From positions 1 to 64,000 of the forward strand of contig NSIL01000011.1 in the NCBI GenBank assembly GCA_002737365.1: DNA of 64,000 nt. The letters are read 5' to 3'. Shown piece after piece: positions 11,653 through 19,317 of this stretch; position 1 is the first letter of the stretch, and each line of letters opens with the position of its first letter. The notes under the pieces are model-generated. The model was given only the letters and a program-made list of their open reading frames with translations, searched no databases and was not told the origin of the DNA. The DNA comes from Acidobacterium sp. (GTDB taxonomy: Bacteria; Acidobacteriota; Vicinamibacteria; Vicinamibacterales; UBA2999). The translations under genes were made by a program, and so were the position numbers.

Positions 11653-12747
11653 ATGCAATTTCGCGGCGACCTCCCCACTCCTGCCCTGCTGCTCGACCTC
11701 GACGCCTTTGAGTCGAACATCGCGACCATGGCGGCGCACCTGCGTGTGCGGGGCAAGGGCTTTCGTCCGCACGGCAAAACCCACAAGTGCCCGGAGGTTG
11801 CGCGGGCGCTCGTCGCCGCCGGTGCCATCGGCTGCTGCGCGGCTCGCCTGGCCGAGGCCGAGGTTTTTGCCGATCACGGCATTCCTGGGCTGTTGATCAC
11901 CACCGCCGTGATCGGCCGGGACAAGATCGCGCGAGCCGTGACCCTGGCCAAGCGCGCGCCCGACACCATTTTTTGCGTCGACGATGAAGCGAACGCGCGG
12001 GACCTGAACGCGGCGGCGCAGGCTGCGGGCGTCACGGTTCTGGTCGCGATCGACCTCTACTTCGGCCGCACCGGCATCTTGCCGGGTGCGCCCGCGCTGG
12101 CACTGGCGCGGGTGATTGCGACGCTCAAGAACCTGACGTTGATGGGCCTGCAGTCATACGATGGCGATGCCGCCCACACGACGCCATTCGACGCGCGCAA
12201 GCTGCGCACCGACGGCTCAATGGCACAAGCCATCGAGACCAAAGCCATGCTCGAACGCGACGGCATCGCGTGCCCGATGATCACCGGCGGCTCTACCGGC
12301 ACCTATCGCTTCGACTCGGAGAATCCGGGCATCACCGAATTGCAGCCCGGCAGCTTCGTGTTCATGGACCTCGACTACGGCCGCATCGGCGGAGCCGATG
12401 GTCCCGAGTACCGCGACTTCAAGAATGCGCTGACCGTGGTGACGACCGTGGTCTCGCGGCCCCCCGGATTCGCCATTGTCGACGGCGGCTACAAGGCCTT
12501 CTCGACTGACCGGCCCTTCACGCCGCGGCCGGTGGACCTGCCTGGCGTCACCTATGGGTGGGCCGGCGACGAGCACGGCCGGTTGAACCTGGCCGATTCA
12601 CCGCGGGAACTCAAGGTCGGCGACCGGCTCGAGTTCATCCCGCCGCACTGCGACCCCACCGTCAACTTGTACGACTCGATTTACGCACTGCGAGGCGATC
12701 GCGTCGAGGCCGTGTGGCCGATTGCGGCGCGCGGCAAGAGCCAGTAG
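11653..12747 (+). CDS. DSD1-family PLP-dependent aldolase/dehydratase (D-threonine aldolase-like)
   Basis: 364 aa. Alanine-racemase-fold PLP enzyme of the D-threonine aldolase / 3-hydroxy-D-aspartate aldolase / D-serine dehydratase group. The PLP lysine lies in FRPHGKTHKCPEVA. The C-terminal metal-binding His-Cys pair is seen in IPPHCDPTVN. Family motifs ITGGSTGT and PGSFVFMD are present. The family cleaves beta-hydroxy-D-amino acids to glycine plus an aldehyde (or glyoxylate), or dehydrates them. The next gene starts 19 nt downstream, so it heads an operon with a 2-hydroxyacid dehydrogenase and a carrier. Which substrate is used cannot be read from the sequence. Confidence 0.85.
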   Translation: MQFRGDLPTPALLLDLDAFESNIATMAAHLRVRGKGFRPHGKTHKCPEVARALVAAGAIGCCAARLAEAEVFADHGIPGLLITTAVIGRDKIARAVTLAKRAPDTIFCVDDEANARDLNAAAQAAGVTVLVAIDLYFGRTGILPGAPALALARVIATLKNLTLMGLQSYDGDAAHTTPFDARKLRTDGSMAQAIETKAMLERDGIACPMITGGSTGTYRFDSENPGITELQPGSFVFMDLDYGRIGGADGPEYRDFKNALTVVTTVVSRPPGFAIVDGGYKAFSTDRPFTPRPVDLPGVTYGWAGDEHGRLNLADSPRELKVGDRLEFIPPHCDPTVNLYDSIYALRGDRVEAVWPIAARGKSQ

Positions 12748-12766
12748 GGCCGCAGATTAGGCACAG

Positions 12767-15649
12767 ATGGGTGTTCTCCAAAGCGAACTCGAGGCGGCCA
12801 TCGACGGCGAGGTGCGGTTCGATCGCATCTCGCGGGCGCTCTATTCGACCGATGCCAGCGTCTATCAGATCGAACCGCTCGGCGTGGTCATTCCCCGCTC
12901 GGCGGAGGCCGTGGCGCAGGCGGTGCAAATCGCGGCCCGGCACGGCGTGCCGATCACACCGCGCGGCGGCGGCACCTCGCAGGCCGGCCAGTCCATTGGC
13001 GCGGGCCTGGTGCTTGATACCTCGAAGCACCTGAACAAGATCCTCGAGATCAACCCCGATGAGCAGTGGGCGCGCGTCCAACCGGGCGTCGTGCTCGACG
13101 ACCTGAACGCCGCACTGCGCCCATTCACCTTGCGCTTCGCCCCGGACGTGTCGTCGGCCAGCCGTGCCACCGTCGGCGGCATGATGGCGAACAACTCCAG
13201 CGGCGCGCGGTCGGTGCTCTACGGCAAGACGCTCGACCACGTTCGCGAGCAGCACGTCGTGCTGTCGGATGGGCAACTGGCGCACCTGCGGCCGCTCACG
13301 GCCGCGCAATTGGACGACGCGAGGCGCGGCGACAGCATCGAGGCCCGCGCCTATCGCGCGGTGCCGGAATTGGGACTGCGTCACGCGGCTGAGATCGACC
13401 GCCGCTTTCCGAAGATCCTGCGCCGGGTCGGCGGCTACAACCTTGACGAGTTCGTGACTCCTGGCGGCATGGTCGATCTCTCGCGCATCATGGTCGGCTC
13501 GGAAGGCACCCTCGGCTTCATCGTCGAGGCCAAGCTCGCCCTGGTGCCCCTGCCTGCCAGCAAGTCCGTGCTGACCATTGAATTCGACGAGCTGCTCGAT
13601 GCGCTCGGCGCGACGCCGCTGATCCTGAAGCACGGTCCGTCCGCAATCGAGGTGATGGATGACTTCATCCTGCGCCACGCCCAGGGCCACCCCGTGCTCG
13701 ATGCGCAGCGGCGCTCGATGGTCGATCGCGACGGTTCCGCTCTGCTGTGCGTTGAGTTCTATGGTGATCAGCCGGACGATCTGACCGGTCGGATGGACAC
13801 GGTGGAGCGCGACCTGAAGGGCGCCGGCATCTCGTGCCGCTGCCGCCAGGTCGTGGATACCGCCGCCCAGCAACGCATCTGGAGCTTCCGCGAAGCGGCA
13901 CTGGGCCTGTCAACGGCGATGAAGTCCGACGGCAAGGCGATCTCGTTCGTCGAAGACACGGCGGTCGCGCCCGAGAAGCTGCGCGACTACATCGCCCGCT
14001 TCGTGGGCATTGTCGAACGTCACGGCACTGTTGCCGGGGTCTACGCCCATGCCTCGGTCGGCTGCCTCCATGTGCGTCCGGTGGTGAACCTGAAGACGGC
14101 GCAGGGCGTGGCGACGTTCGAGGCCATTGCCAACGAGGTCGCTGACTTAGTGCTCGAGTTCGGCGGCGCGCTCTCGGGCGAACACGGCGATGGGCTGGTG
14201 CGCGGCGCCTTCAACGAGCGGATGTTCGGGTCTGAGTTGTACCAGGCCTTCCGCGACGTGAAGCGCACGTTCGATCCCAACGGCCTCTTTAACCCAGGCC
14301 GGATCGTCGACACGCCACCCATCACCTCGCACCTGCGGTTCGGGGCCGGCTATCAGACGCCAAGTCCGGCGACGTTCTTCGACTACGCCGAGCACGGTGG
14401 CTACGGACGCGCGGTGGAAATGTGCAGCGGTGTCGGCCTGTGCCGCAAGACACGCGAGGGAACGATGTGCCCGTCGTACATGGTGACGAAGGACGAATCG
14501 CACTCGACCCGCGGGCGAGCAAACGTGCTGCGTCTCGCGATGACAGGACAGCTGGGTGAAGCCGCCTTGTCAGACAAGGGCGTGCATGAAGTGCTCGACT
14601 TGTGCCTCGAGTGCCGCGCCTGCAAGACCGAGTGTCCCGTCGGTGTCGACGTCGCGAAGTTCAAAAGCGAGTTCCTGGCCGGCTACTGGGAGCGGCATGG
14701 CCTGTCGCCTGCCGCGCAGCTCTTCGGGCATGCGCGTTCGGCGGCGGAATGGGGCAGCCGACTCGCGCCGGTGTCGAACCTGATTGCCGGCAGCGCGCCG
14801 GCGAAGTGGCTTGCTGAAGCAGCGTTTGGCATCGATCGCCGCCGCCGGTTGCCGCAGTTCACCCGCCAGACGCTGCGGAAGCGGCTGGCCGGCCGCACAC
14901 CGGTCGGCGCCGAGCCCAAAGCCGTGCTGTTCGCTGACACGTTCACGGAATTCGAGGATCCGGAGATCGGCGTGGCGGCTATCGACGTGCTCGACGCCGC
15001 CGGCCTCGGCGGCGGTCTCGCGCCGAATGTCTGCTGCGGACGGCCGCTGATCTCACAAGGATTGCTGCGCGAGGCCCGCAAACAGGCCGCCGCGAATGTG
15101 CACGCGCTGTACGATCTCGCTGAGCGTGGCACGGCGATCATCTTCGTCGAGCCGAGCTGTCTATCGGCGGTCCGCGAAGACGCGCCCGGCTTGTTGCGCG
15201 GCGAAATGCAGCGCCGCGCCCGCGTCATTGCCGAGGCGTCGGTGTTGTTCGAGGAATATCTCGAGCGTGAGCTGCAGAGTGGACGCGCGCATCTCCGGCT
15301 CAAGGCCGGTCCTGACCGGGTGCAGTTGCATCCGCACTGCCATCAGCGTTCGATGGGACTGGCGGCGCCGGCCAAGGCCCTGCTGTCGCGGATTCCGGGA
15401 GCCCAGGTCACAGACCTCGAAGCCGGATGCTGCGGCATGGCGGGCTCGTTTGGCTACACCAGGAATCACTACGAAGTCTCGCAGGCGATCGGTGAACGCC
15501 GGCTGCTGCCGGCCGCGCGGGCGCTCGACGATCGATCCACACTGGTCGCCGGCGGGACGTCCTGCCGGCACCAGGTGGCGCACTTCACCGGGGTGCGCGC
15601 GACACACCCGGCCGTGCTGCTCAGTTCGTTGCTGGTCAGGCCCGGCTGA
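12767..15649 (+). CDS. FAD-binding and Fe-S 2-hydroxyacid dehydrogenase (GlcD/GlpC-type fusion)
   Basis: 960 aa. The N-terminal FAD-binding type 4 domain (about 1-260; ITPRGGGTSQAGQS) and FAD-oxidase C domain (about 260-520; GEHGDGLVRG) are fused to a ferredoxin domain with two clusters (CSGVGLCRKTREGTMCP and CLECRACKTECP). Then come CCG-type domains (LHPHCHQRSMG and EAGCCGMAGSFGY) that hold a further Fe-S centre. This arrangement is found in quinone-linked D-lactate, glycolate or D-2-hydroxyglutarate dehydrogenases at the inner membrane. It lies between an aldolase and a dicarboxylate-type carrier. The substrate is unassigned. Confidence 0.88.
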   Translation: MGVLQSELEAAIDGEVRFDRISRALYSTDASVYQIEPLGVVIPRSAEAVAQAVQIAARHGVPITPRGGGTSQAGQSIGAGLVLDTSKHLNKILEINPDEQWARVQPGVVLDDLNAALRPFTLRFAPDVSSASRATVGGMMANNSSGARSVLYGKTLDHVREQHVVLSDGQLAHLRPLTAAQLDDARRGDSIEARAYRAVPELGLRHAAEIDRRFPKILRRVGGYNLDEFVTPGGMVDLSRIMVGSEGTLGFIVEAKLALVPLPASKSVLTIEFDELLDALGATPLILKHGPSAIEVMDDFILRHAQGHPVLDAQRRSMVDRDGSALLCVEFYGDQPDDLTGRMDTVERDLKGAGISCRCRQVVDTAAQQRIWSFREAALGLSTAMKSDGKAISFVEDTAVAPEKLRDYIARFVGIVERHGTVAGVYAHASVGCLHVRPVVNLKTAQGVATFEAIANEVADLVLEFGGALSGEHGDGLVRGAFNERMFGSELYQAFRDVKRTFDPNGLFNPGRIVDTPPITSHLRFGAGYQTPSPATFFDYAEHGGYGRAVEMCSGVGLCRKTREGTMCPSYMVTKDESHSTRGRANVLRLAMTGQLGEAALSDKGVHEVLDLCLECRACKTECPVGVDVAKFKSEFLAGYWERHGLSPAAQLFGHARSAAEWGSRLAPVSNLIAGSAPAKWLAEAAFGIDRRRRLPQFTRQTLRKRLAGRTPVGAEPKAVLFADTFTEFEDPEIGVAAIDVLDAAGLGGGLAPNVCCGRPLISQGLLREARKQAAANVHALYDLAERGTAIIFVEPSCLSAVREDAPGLLRGEMQRRARVIAEASVLFEEYLERELQSGRAHLRLKAGPDRVQLHPHCHQRSMGLAAPAKALLSRIPGAQVTDLEAGCCGMAGSFGYTRNHYEVSQAIGERRLLPAARALDDRSTLVAGGTSCRHQVAHFTGVRATHPAVLLSSLLVRPG

Positions 15650-15658
15650 CGCCGGACA
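15637..15658. repeat. REP-like palindrome, diverged copy 3
   Basis: CAGGCCCGGCTGACGCCGGAC overlaps the last codons of the FAD/Fe-S dehydrogenase. The core CCGGC-TGAC-GCCGG matches the other two copies imperfectly. Its position suggests the element has been captured as the C-terminal coding end of that gene. Confidence 0.4.
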
Positions 15659-15679
15659 CTACAAGGATTAGGAGACCCG

Positions 15680-16951
15680 ATGAACCTCGCGTGGATTTCG
15701 CTCGTGGCGCTGCTCGTCGCGATCACGCTCAGCATGTTGACCCAGGTGAACGTGGGCGTCGTCTCGCTGGCCTTTGCCTGGATCGTCGGCGTGTATCTCG
15801 GCGGCATGAAGCTCGACGCGGTGATCGGGACGTTCCCGATCCAGCTGTTCCTGACCCTGGTTGGCGTGACCCTGCTCTTTGGGATGGCCGGCCTCAACGG
15901 CACGCTGGGCCGCCTCGCTTCGCGCGCGGTGCGGCTGTGCCGCGGTAACGCCGGCGTCATCCCGGTCATGTTCTTCCTGATCGCGCTGGCCCTGTCGAGC
16001 ATCGGACCGGGCAACATCGCGACGACGGCGATCCTGGCGCCGATGGCCATGGCCGTTGGCGCGCGGGCCGCGGTCTCGCCGTTTCTCATGGCCCTGATGG
16101 TCGGCAACGGCGCGCAAGCCGGTGCGCTGTCACCCTTCGCACCGACCGGCGCGATCGTCAACGACATCATGGGTCGCATCGGCCTCGGCGGGCACGAGAT
16201 GCAGACCTACGGCAACAACCTGTTCGCCCACCTCGTCGTCACGTTCGCTGCCTATTTTTTGTTTGGCGGGCTGAAGTTGTTCACCAGGAAGGCGGCGGAG
16301 CCACACCTGTTGCAGAGTGACCAGGCGGGCGCCCGGGCCGAAACGGAATTGGTCGCGACCGAACCCCTGGAGTGGGTTCACTGGCTCACCATCGGCATCC
16401 TGACGACGCTGGTCCTGGTCGTGGTGTTGTTCAAGATGCAGGTCGGCATGGCCGCCCTGACCGGCGCCGCGTTGCTCTCGCTCGCTGGGGCCGGCAACGA
16501 AAAGGACGCGATCAAGAAGATGCCGTGGGGCGTCGTGATCATGGTGTGCGGCGTCACGGTGCTGATTGGCGTGCTGGAGAAGACGCAAGGCATGTCGCTG
16601 TTCGCCGACCTGCTGGCCAAAATCTCAACGCCCGGGACGGTCACGCTGACGATTGCCTTCGTGACGGGCGTGGTCTCGGTCTACAGCAGCACCTCGGGTG
16701 TGGTGCTGCCGGCGTTCCTGCCGACGGTGCCGTCGCTGGCGCAGCAGCTAGGCGCCGATCCGCTCGCCATCGCCTCGGCGATGTATGTCGGCGGCCACCT
16801 CGTCGACCTGTCGCCGCTGTCGACGATTGGCGCGTTGTGCATTGCGGCGCTGCCGGCTGAAGCCGACGCCAAGAAGCTGTTCAACCAGTTGCTGGCGTGG
16901 GGCCTGTCGATGATGGTGGTAGGCGCGCTGATCTGCTGGGTGCTGTTCTGA
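15680..16951 (+). CDS. MatC-like / SLC13-type dicarboxylate or hydroxyacid permease
   Basis: 423 aa, about 10-12 hydrophobic segments, starting with a MatC N-terminal-like region (LAWISLVALLVAITLSML). Two re-entrant-like motifs are symmetrically placed: SSIGPGNIATTA near residue 110 and VYSSTSGVVLPAF near residue 340. These resemble the ion-transporter superfamily of Na+/dicarboxylate and malonate carriers. GGA precedes the ATG. It follows the FAD/Fe-S dehydrogenase by 30 nt and probably imports its substrate. Confidence 0.8.
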   Translation: MNLAWISLVALLVAITLSMLTQVNVGVVSLAFAWIVGVYLGGMKLDAVIGTFPIQLFLTLVGVTLLFGMAGLNGTLGRLASRAVRLCRGNAGVIPVMFFLIALALSSIGPGNIATTAILAPMAMAVGARAAVSPFLMALMVGNGAQAGALSPFAPTGAIVNDIMGRIGLGGHEMQTYGNNLFAHLVVTFAAYFLFGGLKLFTRKAAEPHLLQSDQAGARAETELVATEPLEWVHWLTIGILTTLVLVVVLFKMQVGMAALTGAALLSLAGAGNEKDAIKKMPWGVVIMVCGVTVLIGVLEKTQGMSLFADLLAKISTPGTVTLTIAFVTGVVSVYSSTSGVVLPAFLPTVPSLAQQLGADPLAIASAMYVGGHLVDLSPLSTIGALCIAALPAEADAKKLFNQLLAWGLSMMVVGALICWVLF

Positions 16952-16997: not shown

Positions 16998-17780
16998 TCA
17001 GACGCCCCAGAAACGGGGCTTGCGGCCCTCAAGGAAGGCGCTGACGCCTTCCTTGAAGTCCGTGCTGCCGTAACAGGCGCGCAGAATGTCGTCGGCCGAA
17101 CCCGCCGGTGGCCGGCGGTGATCGCGCAACCGGAGCAGCGTGGCCTTGGTCGCCATTATCGTGCTCGGTGCACGGGTCGACAGCTCGGCGGCGATCTTGA
17201 CCGTCTCGGCCTGCAGTTGATCGACCGGCAGCACCCGGGTGGCTAAGCCGCGCTGGTGAGCCTCGTCGGCATTCATCAGGCGGCCGCTCAGTAGCAGGTC
17301 CTTGGTGACGGCCACACCCAGCACGTCCACCATCCGCGCCAGGTTGGCAATCGACAGACAGTTGCCGAGGGTGCGCGCTACCGGCACGCCGAAGCGCGCG
17401 CGATCCGAGCAAATGCGGAAATCGCACGCCAGGGCGATGGCGCAGCCGCCGCCGACGGCGGCGCCATCCACTTCGGCGATCGTCGGGATGGCCATTTGTT
17501 CAATGCGATCGATCACCGCGTCGAGACGCCGCTCGTAGGCGACGCCGGCCTCGCCGTTGGCAAACTCGCGAAACTGGGAGATGTCGGTGCCGGCTGCGAA
17601 GGCGCCGCCCGCTCCGCGTATGATGAGCACACGCACGTCGCCGGCCGCTTCGGCCGCCTCGCACGCCGCGACCAGTGCGTCGTACATCTCCCACGTCAGC
17701 GCGTTGCGCGAATCGGGGCGATTGAACGTTACCACTCCGACGGATCCGTTGATGTCCCAGTCCAGATTGCTCGAAGGCAT
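16998..17780 (-). CDS. Crotonase-superfamily protein (enoyl-CoA hydratase/isomerase-like) lacking both catalytic glutamates
   Basis: 260 aa, the family length. The oxyanion-hole segments are clear: GAGGAFAAGTDISQF and AEVDGAAVGGGC. The two glutamates used by true enoyl-CoA hydratases are replaced: GGGCAIALACD has Ala where Glu144 of rat crotonase lies, and FGVPVARTLG has no Glu where QPE is usual. Simple water addition is therefore unlikely. Isomerase, racemase-like or other acyl-CoA chemistry is possible. The ATG at 17780 is the family-consistent start; the open frame upstream is antisense to the neighbour. Pairing with a CaiB-type transferase recalls carnitine-type CoA pathways. Confidence 0.82.
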   Translation of the reverse strand: MPSSNLDWDINGSVGVVTFNRPDSRNALTWEMYDALVAACEAAEAAGDVRVLIIRGAGGAFAAGTDISQFREFANGEAGVAYERRLDAVIDRIEQMAIPTIAEVDGAAVGGGCAIALACDFRICSDRARFGVPVARTLGNCLSIANLARMVDVLGVAVTKDLLLSGRLMNADEAHQRGLATRVLPVDQLQAETVKIAAELSTRAPSTIMATKATLLRLRDHRRPPAGSADDILRACYGSTDFKEGVSAFLEGRKPRFWGV

Positions 17781-18942
17781 AGTGGTTCTCGATACGACGC
17801 AGATCATGGCCGGCCCGTATTGCGCGATGTTACTGGCAGACATGGGTGCGCGGGTCATCAAAGTGGAGCCGCCGGCGGGTGACTCCACGCGCGTCATGGC
17901 TGGCAGCCAGGGCAGCGATAGCGCCGCGTTCAACGCCGTGAACCGCGGCAAGCTTGGCATTGTGCTCGATCTGACCAAGGACCAGGGCCGCCACGTATTC
18001 ACGCGGCTGGCGCGGGGCGCCGACATCCTGGTCGAGAACTACCGGCCCGGCGTGATGGCCAGGCTGGGCCTTGATTACGCCACGCTGTCGGTGCAGCACC
18101 CGCGGTTGATCTACGCCTCGATCTCGGGTCACGGCCAGACCGGACCGTGGGCGCAGAAGGGCGGCTTCGATCTGATCGCGCAGGGACTGTCGGGCATCAT
18201 GTCGGTGACGGGCACGCCCGGCGGGCCGCCGGTCAAAGCCGGCCTGCCGCTCACCGATCTCGGCGCCGGTCTCTTCGCGACCATTGGTGTCCTTGGCGCC
18301 TTGCATCACCGGACCCAGTCGGGCCGTGGTCAACATGTCGACACGTCACTGGTCGATGCCGGCCTCGCGTTGTCGGTCTGGGAGGTCACCGACTACGTCA
18401 CGACGGGAAACATCCCAGGGCCGATCGGGTCGGCACATCGACTGACCGCGCCGTACCAGGCGGTCCAGTGCGCGGACGGCCATCTCACCATCGGCGCCGC
18501 CAACGATCGCAACTTTGCCAAGCTGACGACCGTGCTCGGCCATCCGGAATGGGCCGCTGACCCGCGCTTTGTGACGAACCATCTGCGGGTGCAGCACCGG
18601 ACCGAACTCGCGGCCCTGATCGAGGAGATCACCGGCACCGCGCCCGTGGCCGCCTGGCTTGAACGCCTCGACGCCGCGGGCATCCCGTGCGGGCCAATTC
18701 TGAATTACGAACAGGCGCTGTCGACACCGCAGGCCATCGCGCGGGAGATGGTCGCCGAGGTCGACCATCCCATCCTGGGGCGCCTGAAGACGGTGGGTAC
18801 CCCAATCAAGATGTCGGAGACGCCGCTCAATCCAGGCCGCCGCGCGCCCATGCTGGGTGAGCACACCGACGAGGTGTTGGCCAATGCCGGCTACAGCGGC
18901 GATGAGATCGAACAACTGCGCTACGCCGGAGCGGCGCTCTAG
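17752..18942 (+). CDS. CaiB/BaiF (family III) CoA-transferase
   Basis: 396 aa from the ATG at 17752, the standard length. It moves CoA between carboxylic acids by a ping-pong route through an aspartyl-CoA intermediate. Features are LLEGIVVLDTTQIMAGPYC at the N-terminus, MGARVIKVEPP, ENYRPGVMARLGLDY, and the catalytic Asp in GLPLTDLGAG. A much longer open frame exists upstream but has no homology. The 5' end overlaps the divergent crotonase gene by 29 bp, so each gene's promoter must lie inside the other's coding region. Confidence 0.88.
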   Translation: MSQSRLLEGIVVLDTTQIMAGPYCAMLLADMGARVIKVEPPAGDSTRVMAGSQGSDSAAFNAVNRGKLGIVLDLTKDQGRHVFTRLARGADILVENYRPGVMARLGLDYATLSVQHPRLIYASISGHGQTGPWAQKGGFDLIAQGLSGIMSVTGTPGGPPVKAGLPLTDLGAGLFATIGVLGALHHRTQSGRGQHVDTSLVDAGLALSVWEVTDYVTTGNIPGPIGSAHRLTAPYQAVQCADGHLTIGAANDRNFAKLTTVLGHPEWAADPRFVTNHLRVQHRTELAALIEEITGTAPVAAWLERLDAAGIPCGPILNYEQALSTPQAIAREMVAEVDHPILGRLKTVGTPIKMSETPLNPGRRAPMLGEHTDEVLANAGYSGDEIEQLRYAGAAL

Positions 18943-19317
18943 CTAAGTCCAGATCACCGGCGCGCCGTAGGGCTCGATGGCGCGGTCGTGGGTTACGAGT
19001 GTGGCTTTTTCGACCAGCGCCTGTGCGACCAGAAGCCGATCAAACGGATCGGCATGGTGCGGTGGCAGGTCGAGCAGCCGTTCGGTGTGAGTCAGCGACA
19101 CGGGCAGCTCGGTGAACTGGTCGACGGCGACCAGGATTCGAAACTTCTCGTCGAGCCGCAACCGCCCTCGGGCGGCCTTAATTGAGGCCTCCCATCCCGA
19201 GACTGCACTCACCCACACGATGTCGGCGGTGGCAATCGCCTGCCGGGCCTCGCGTCCCAGCCGACGGTCGTCGGTCTGCCACCACAGCACGACGTGGGTG
19301 TCGAGGAGCAGCCTCAC
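18943..19317 (-). CDS. vapC: PIN-domain toxin, VapC family
   Basis: 124 aa. Predicted Mg2+-dependent ribonuclease toxin. The PIN acidic residues are visible: Asp in LLLDTHVVLWW, Glu in WEASIKAA, and the paired Asp in ADPFDRLLVAQA plus VTHDRAI. The GTG start overlaps the antitoxin stop (GTGA, 4 nt), typical of a toxin translated second. The stop codon directly abuts the stop of the convergent CoA-transferase. VapC toxins cut tRNA or rRNA; the target here is unknown. Confidence 0.9.
   Translation of the reverse strand: MRLLLDTHVVLWWQTDDRRLGREARQAIATADIVWVSAVSGWEASIKAARGRLRLDEKFRILVAVDQFTELPVSLTHTERLLDLPPHHADPFDRLLVAQALVEKATLVTHDRAIEPYGAPVIWT

Follow-up and report, generated by a model that had tools for sequence, protein, structure and literature searches.

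What kind of metabolism would bring together, on one strand and almost without gaps, an aldolase for β-hydroxy amino acids, a 2-hydroxyacid dehydrogenase and an organic-acid carrier? The question is raised by a locus within the window, the 64,000-nucleotide stretch of Acidobacteriota DNA that we analysed. A metal- and PLP-dependent fold-III aldolase (11653–12747, + strand; ORF of 364 aa with PF01168 and PF14031) is followed after 19 nt by a fused FAD/4Fe-4S/CCG D-2-hydroxyacid dehydrogenase of YdiJ-like architecture (12767–15649, +; 960 aa with PF01565, PF02913, Fer4 and CCG) and after a further 30 nt by a MatC_N/CitMHS carrier of SLC13/ArsB-like type (15680–16951, +; 423 aa, family from Pfam), so the compact spacing and the families given in the first-pass annotation are borne out. 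Its three genes are real, but the extent assigned to the cluster (11653–16951) ends too early, since a crotonase-fold (enoyl-CoA hydratase-like, ECH-like) protein of NCBIfam subfamily PRK06144 (16998–17795, −, convergent with the carrier) and a family III CoA-transferase (17752–18942, +, divergent from the ECH-like gene and overlapping its 5′ end) belong to the conserved locus. This locus is thus made up of five genes, for aldolase, dehydrogenase, carrier, crotonase-like protein and CoA-transferase. Its carrier has the MatC_N domain (PF07158, 113.5 bits against a gathering score of 23) in common with the MatC dicarboxylate (malonate) carrier; SLC13-type genes of rhizobia and actinobacteria, its closest matches among named plasmids, are about 31–33% identical. 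A scan of it for promoters and terminators gave nothing above shuffled sequences (one promoter-like and four terminator-like hits). The next gene (18943–19317, −) encodes a PIN-domain protein (PF01850 by Pfam), likely to form a toxin-antitoxin pair with a small adjacent ORF.

Relatives of the aldolase at E ≤ 1e-30 are present in 93 of the 396 Acidobacteriota genomes searched. All five genes are found together in the same order in seven of the eight closest by aldolase (60–86% identity, the window itself not counted), so the gene order is not due to chance. In the eighth, G285, the locus is broken by contig ends and spread over three contigs, which carry the aldolase with a partial dehydrogenase, the dehydrogenase with the carrier, and the CoA-transferase, respectively. 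Close to contig ends in this genome (C28 and C109; L055) there are two distinct pieces of dehydrogenase, of 54% and 75% identity, which suggests that the dehydrogenase is duplicated within that locus. Among 80 aldolase loci from a collection of named genomes, the five-gene set appears in only two, L073, a named record with the same gene order, and L074. The record of the latter (VFZG01000006.1), which bears the title Acidimicrobiia bacterium, seems to be identical to Acidobacteriota contig G213:C6, with the match in the same place, and its title looks wrong. The dehydrogenase partner was absent from the other 78 loci at the search sensitivity used, some of these stretches being short, and the full set is therefore, at this sensitivity, seen in this lineage only; one of the 78 (L095) has a 26% match to an FAD oxidase.

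A dehydrogenase with no less than 59% identity across upwards of 700 residues is present in 19 genomes. The carrier adjoins it in 15 of them. The carrier–dehydrogenase core stands without an adjacent aldolase in G237, G261, G175 and G116, and a class V aminotransferase is found at the aldolase-less loci of G237, G175, G116 and G206. The top NCBIfam model for these four aminotransferases is BhcA (443–470 bits, cut-off 650), and the same model comes first, within the same range of scores, for all eight class V aminotransferases tested from loci with the dehydrogenase or the CoA pair. The pair of ECH-like protein and CoA-transferase is also present at the G237 and G116 loci; in G277 and G253 it accompanies a dehydrogenase that is more distantly related. 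Other partners occur as well: a class I/II aminotransferase adjoins the dehydrogenase in G187 and G289, with an aldolase next to it in G187, and a D-threonine aldolase (DTA)-like enzyme of another subfamily is convergent with the carrier in G367, G309 and G293. The BhcA-like aminotransferase is present in 23 of the 396 genomes, and for 12 of its 22 copies with at least 60% identity (a count that leaves out one 41% match and one partial match) the same contig has a dehydrogenase match less than 7 kb away. The nine genomes that have the module aldolase all lack this aminotransferase, against seven of the ten others with the dehydrogenase that have it, a contrast that is not an independent test because the genomes are related. 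The exchange of aminotransferase and aldolase follows kinship closely and may represent a single event.

Beyond this phylum we examined 17 loci from named plasmid and megaplasmid records, 12 chosen by the aminotransferase, three by the dehydrogenase and two by the crotonase, with homologues placed by tblastn. The dehydrogenase is also present at nine of the 12 aminotransferase-chosen loci; the remaining three (Defluviimonas, Sinorhizobium and Aminobacter) have amidase, racemase, dihydropyrimidinase or urate genes as neighbours, and we read them as probable ureide breakdown loci. The aminotransferase is found at all three dehydrogenase-chosen loci, and the two crotonase-chosen ones both have the CoA-transferase and in one case the aminotransferase. 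A further dehydrogenase match in Nonomuraea (L187) turned out to be the aminotransferase locus L197, in the order aminotransferase, dehydrogenase, MatC. The set of aminotransferase, dehydrogenase and CoA genes is found in Limimaricola, in Halomonas (TRAP, ECH, CoA-transferase, aminotransferase, dehydrogenase) and, together with an aldolase, in Caballeronia, where strain Sq4a has a single run of GntR, aminotransferase, MhpD-like, dehydrogenase, MFS, ECH, CoA-transferase and DSD1 aldolase genes. In Tateyamaria a GntR–dehydrogenase/aminotransferase–TRAP set is followed by bhcDCBA, the only case among the 12 aminotransferase-chosen loci in which a bhc cluster is adjacent. Within 16 kb of plasmid NZ_CP019313.1 (L201), bhcABCD is accompanied by a fused dehydrogenase, a further BhcA-like aminotransferase, a malonyl-CoA synthase and a TRAP transporter. 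The aminotransferases from Proteobacteria, Nonomuraea and Acidobacteriota fall into a single clade, 59–74% identical to the G237 protein; this clade is separate from BhcA, to which its members are 39–45% identical, so their glyoxylate specificity is assigned by family only. The recurring GntR gene may be compared with the GntR-family repressor of glycolate oxidase described beside its target in Paracoccus (PMC11323563), a parallel that is suggestive only.

These comparisons show a shared core of carrier, dehydrogenase, CoA-transferase and crotonase-like protein, with a PLP partner that varies by lineage: a BhcA-like aminotransferase in sister families, a DTA/BhcC-superfamily aldolase here and both in Caballeronia. 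That the dehydrogenase, the CoA pair and a PLP enzyme of glyoxylate type recur together across phyla shows a functional module. The glyoxylate theme of the first-pass annotation is supported by the association of the dehydrogenase–carrier pair with a BhcA-like aminotransferase in sister families and the proximity of the Tateyamaria set to bhcABCD. We tentatively favour, without calling it probable, a module for the catabolism of a hydroxy acid that has a glyoxylate/glycine arm; in this lineage the aldolase would take the place of the relatives' aminotransferase. A small hydroxy (di)carboxylic acid would be imported by the MatC-type carrier (elsewhere by a TRAP or MFS transporter) and the FAD/Fe-S enzyme would oxidise a D-2-hydroxyacid to the 2-oxoacid, with the respiratory chain receiving the electrons. 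Glyoxylate, which we infer as the common intermediate from the families of the aminotransferase and the aldolase and from the bhc neighbourhood in one record, would be this 2-oxoacid or arise from it, and would be removed by amino chemistry. In the relatives it would be transaminated to glycine, while in the window lineage the aldolase could interconvert glycine and glyoxylate with a β-hydroxy-D-amino acid such as 3-hydroxyaspartate, in either direction. The CoA-transferase and crotonase-like protein would work at the acyl-CoA level, either upstream or in a side branch. Against this explanation stand the separate clade of the aminotransferases, the close agreement of the aminotransferase/aldolase exchange with kinship, the YdiJ-like pocket of the dehydrogenase, the absence of two pocket glutamines from the aldolase (both described below), the rarity of bhc neighbours and the lack of bhcB or bhcD above cut-off in the own genome.

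The first-pass annotation did not recognise the grouping as standard. The combination does look undescribed, each enzyme family being known and a literature search limited to openly licensed papers having found no description of the gene cluster, but it recurs in the lineage and, in a wider version, across phyla. The gene set is common to Acidobacteriota and Alpha-, Beta- and Gammaproteobacteria, with a shorter form in an actinomycete, and we found no substrate assigned to it. If the glyoxylate reading is true, it would extend the known routes for glycolate-type carbon in environmental bacteria; the problem is tractable because isolates have been sequenced from several genera in which versions occur (Caballeronia, Cupriavidus, Halomonas and Limimaricola).

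The aldolase is closest to the solved structures of BhcC (6qkb, 259 bits) and of D-threonine aldolases (7dib, 255 bits; AxDTA 4v15, 226 bits), dehydratase structures scoring 106 bits at most. BhcC is also its only NCBIfam match (NF045642), at 304.4 bits against a cut-off of 690. We mapped the AxDTA residues named in PMC4401734 onto the window enzyme by alignment and found that equivalents of the PLP lysine, Arg157, Tyr187, His193, Gln249, Tyr260, His347 and Asp349 are kept, among them K42, R139, Y169, H175, H332 and D334 in window numbering. All the residues looked for in a metal-PLP aldolase (the PLP lysine, the His-x-Asp site, Arg157 and His193) are thus in place, and the match of H332/D334 to the AxDTA metal ligands His347/Asp349 argues, in agreement with the earlier proposal, for aldolase rather than dehydratase chemistry. 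Among the mapped positions only Gln81 and Gln192 are changed, to Ala64 and Ala174; in the eight relatives the first is Ala and the second Ala or Ser. Both glutamines are present in DTA and BhcC alike. In a tree of 38 rows, which includes the G367 and G293 copies, BhcC clusters with the DTAs and the Caballeronia enzymes in a clade (support 100/99) from which the window clade (26 rows, 98/98) is excluded, and the dehydratase and a paralogue from the window's own genome fall outside both, on long branches. The tree suggested in the first-pass annotation thus separates the window clade from BhcC and DTA as well as from the dehydratase, and the idea of a BhcC-family enzyme holds at the level of the superfamily but not for BhcC itself. 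With these residues kept and a clade of its own, the window enzyme is best described as a metal-PLP aldolase that represents a third subfamily within the DTA/BhcC superfamily. It has the PLP lysine, metal His/Asp and substrate Arg in common with D-threonine aldolases (AxDTA 4v15, 7dib, 7yqa) and differs from these characterised enzymes in the small residues at the two glutamine positions and in its clade.

Such a well-preserved active site, with DTAs and BhcC as nearest structures, would also suit a scavenging role, in which the carrier imports a β-hydroxy-D-amino acid (3-hydroxyaspartate or a D-threonine-like or phenylserine-like compound), the aldolase splits it to give glycine together with an oxo acid or aldehyde, and the substrate of the dehydrogenase is a hydroxy acid that stems from this cleavage. 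The DTA-like aldolase of another subfamily, convergent with the same carrier in three genomes, points the same way. However, the core stands without an adjacent aldolase in four genomes, which means that what is imported does not have to serve the aldolase as substrate, and several of these loci carry an aminotransferase instead. We consider scavenging unlikely.

For the whole dehydrogenase protein the top NCBIfam model is YdiJ (NF049975), at 611.9 bits against a cut-off of 1350, and the GlcD model TIGR00387 reaches 218.5 bits (cut-off 567.9). The catalytic residues reported for human D2HGDH (Arg386, His434, His441, Glu475 and His476; PMC7801405) all have clear equivalents here (R375, H428, H435, E472 and H473), assigned from motifs after aligning the window enzyme with YdiJ and GlcD, but not with the human sequence itself. 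At the distal end of the pocket an HVRP motif and a lysine (R437, K390) are common to the window enzyme and YdiJ, and neither is in E. coli GlcD; a tyrosine shared with human D2HGDH (PMC7801405) is likewise absent from GlcD. Oxidation of glycolate, the condition from which the first-pass annotation started, is therefore unproven: the pocket resembles YdiJ more than GlcD, which argues in favour of a hydroxy acid that is dicarboxylic or larger. YdiJ is reported to be strict for D-2-hydroxyglutarate and inactive on D-lactate, D-malate and D-glycerate, in an account that does not mention glycolate (PMC9504171). In the window's own genome no second fused dehydrogenase was found; a stand-alone D-lactate-dehydrogenase-like gene (on contig C45) and an FAD oxidase are encoded elsewhere.

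It is conceivable, then, that the enzyme is a YdiJ-like D-2-hydroxyglutarate (or D-malate) dehydrogenase, with the carrier and the CoA-transferase serving C4–C5 dicarboxylates and the aldolase a loosely related, glycine-producing neighbour. Besides the pocket, the fused FAD and Fe-S architecture and the catalytic residues are common to both enzymes, and the solved structure nearest to the CoA-transferase is that of succinate-hydroxymethylglutarate CoA-transferase (SUGCT). However, the dehydrogenase is only 32% identical to YdiJ, with less than half of the equivalog score, and among solved structures a glycolate oxidase (9qgz) matches it best. In many examined loci the window type lies beside PLP or CoA enzymes, unlike E. 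coli ydiJ, and oxidation of D-2-hydroxyglutarate or D-malate needs neither the recurring BhcA-like aminotransferase nor the CoA pair. We find this explanation rather improbable.

In the PRK06144-like proteins both catalytic glutamates of enoyl-CoA hydratase are replaced, in 10 of 10 alignment rows, the Caballeronia protein retaining the first. All ten rows also share a one-residue insertion within the pattern P-x-x-(R/K)-T-x-G-N-C-L-S, and a new crotonase activity is possible. A methylmalonyl-CoA-decarboxylase-type function in a malonate or tartronate route was rejected, as E. coli ScpB keeps the first glutamate position and PRK06144-like proteins do not; the idea survives only within the more speculative proposal that follows. 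In a glyoxylate-assimilating route of Acidobacteriota not described before, the CoA-transferase/crotonase pair would activate and shorten a hydroxy dicarboxylate, the fused dehydrogenase would oxidise the product to glyoxylate, and the non-BhcC aldolase would join this with glycine to give 3-hydroxyaspartate, a non-orthologous analogue of the β-hydroxyaspartate cycle for which other phyla would use the same core with a BhcA-like aminotransferase; we think this improbable. A separate candidate, from tartrate via oxaloglycolate and L-hydroxyaspartate to the aldolase, is disfavoured by stereochemistry, because the aldolase superfamily acts on a D-configured C2 and class V aminotransferases make L-amino acids.

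The β-hydroxyaspartate cycle proper, as first proposed, would combine a glycolate oxidase and BhcC in this locus with bhcA, bhcB and bhcD elsewhere. We searched the window's own genome with bhcA, bhcB and bhcD queries from a named plasmid. For bhcA there was no match at E ≤ 1e-3 (the positive control scored 894 bits). Relatives of bhcB (threonine-dehydratase family; three above 30% identity and three weaker) and of bhcD (OCD family; one, 30% identity) do exist, but the three stronger bhcB relatives score 178–220 bits against a cut-off of 550 and the bhcD relative 176 against 500, and all four do better on other models. Since this genome is 97% complete, absence of a bhc set is likely but not proven. 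Compared with the bhcABCD cluster of Rhodobacterales, the locus shares the aldolase superfamily and its sister loci use a BhcA-like aminotransferase, but both enzymes belong to separate subfamilies below the equivalog cut-offs, BhcB and BhcD partners are missing, and a dehydrogenase, a CoA-transferase and a crotonase-like protein are added. In spite of the aldolase having BhcC as its sole NCBIfam match, its score, its place in the tree and the search results leave a true cycle built from bhc orthologues largely refuted and, in our view, very improbable.

Least credible is a pairing of D-serine dehydratase with D-lactate dehydrogenase: both window families share folds with these enzymes, but the residues show an aldolase pattern and the own genome has a separate D-lactate-dehydrogenase-like gene. 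The first-pass annotation had set this pairing, without bhc genes, against its own proposal; a bhc set is indeed lacking, but the aldolase does not group with dehydratases, and the case does not hold as a whole. An HxC metal motif is a mark of dehydratases, and the window aldolase has HxD, with Gln rather than Arg at position 249, so that Tyr187, Gln249 and HxD speak against a dehydratase. The dehydratase-like pattern (His187, Arg249 and HxC) sits instead in the paralogue on contig C45 (G000:C45; L061, 8591–9703). This protein shares His187 and Arg249 with 3wqc, whose row ends before the metal motif, and it groups with D-threo-3-hydroxyaspartate dehydratase in what is a join of two long branches.
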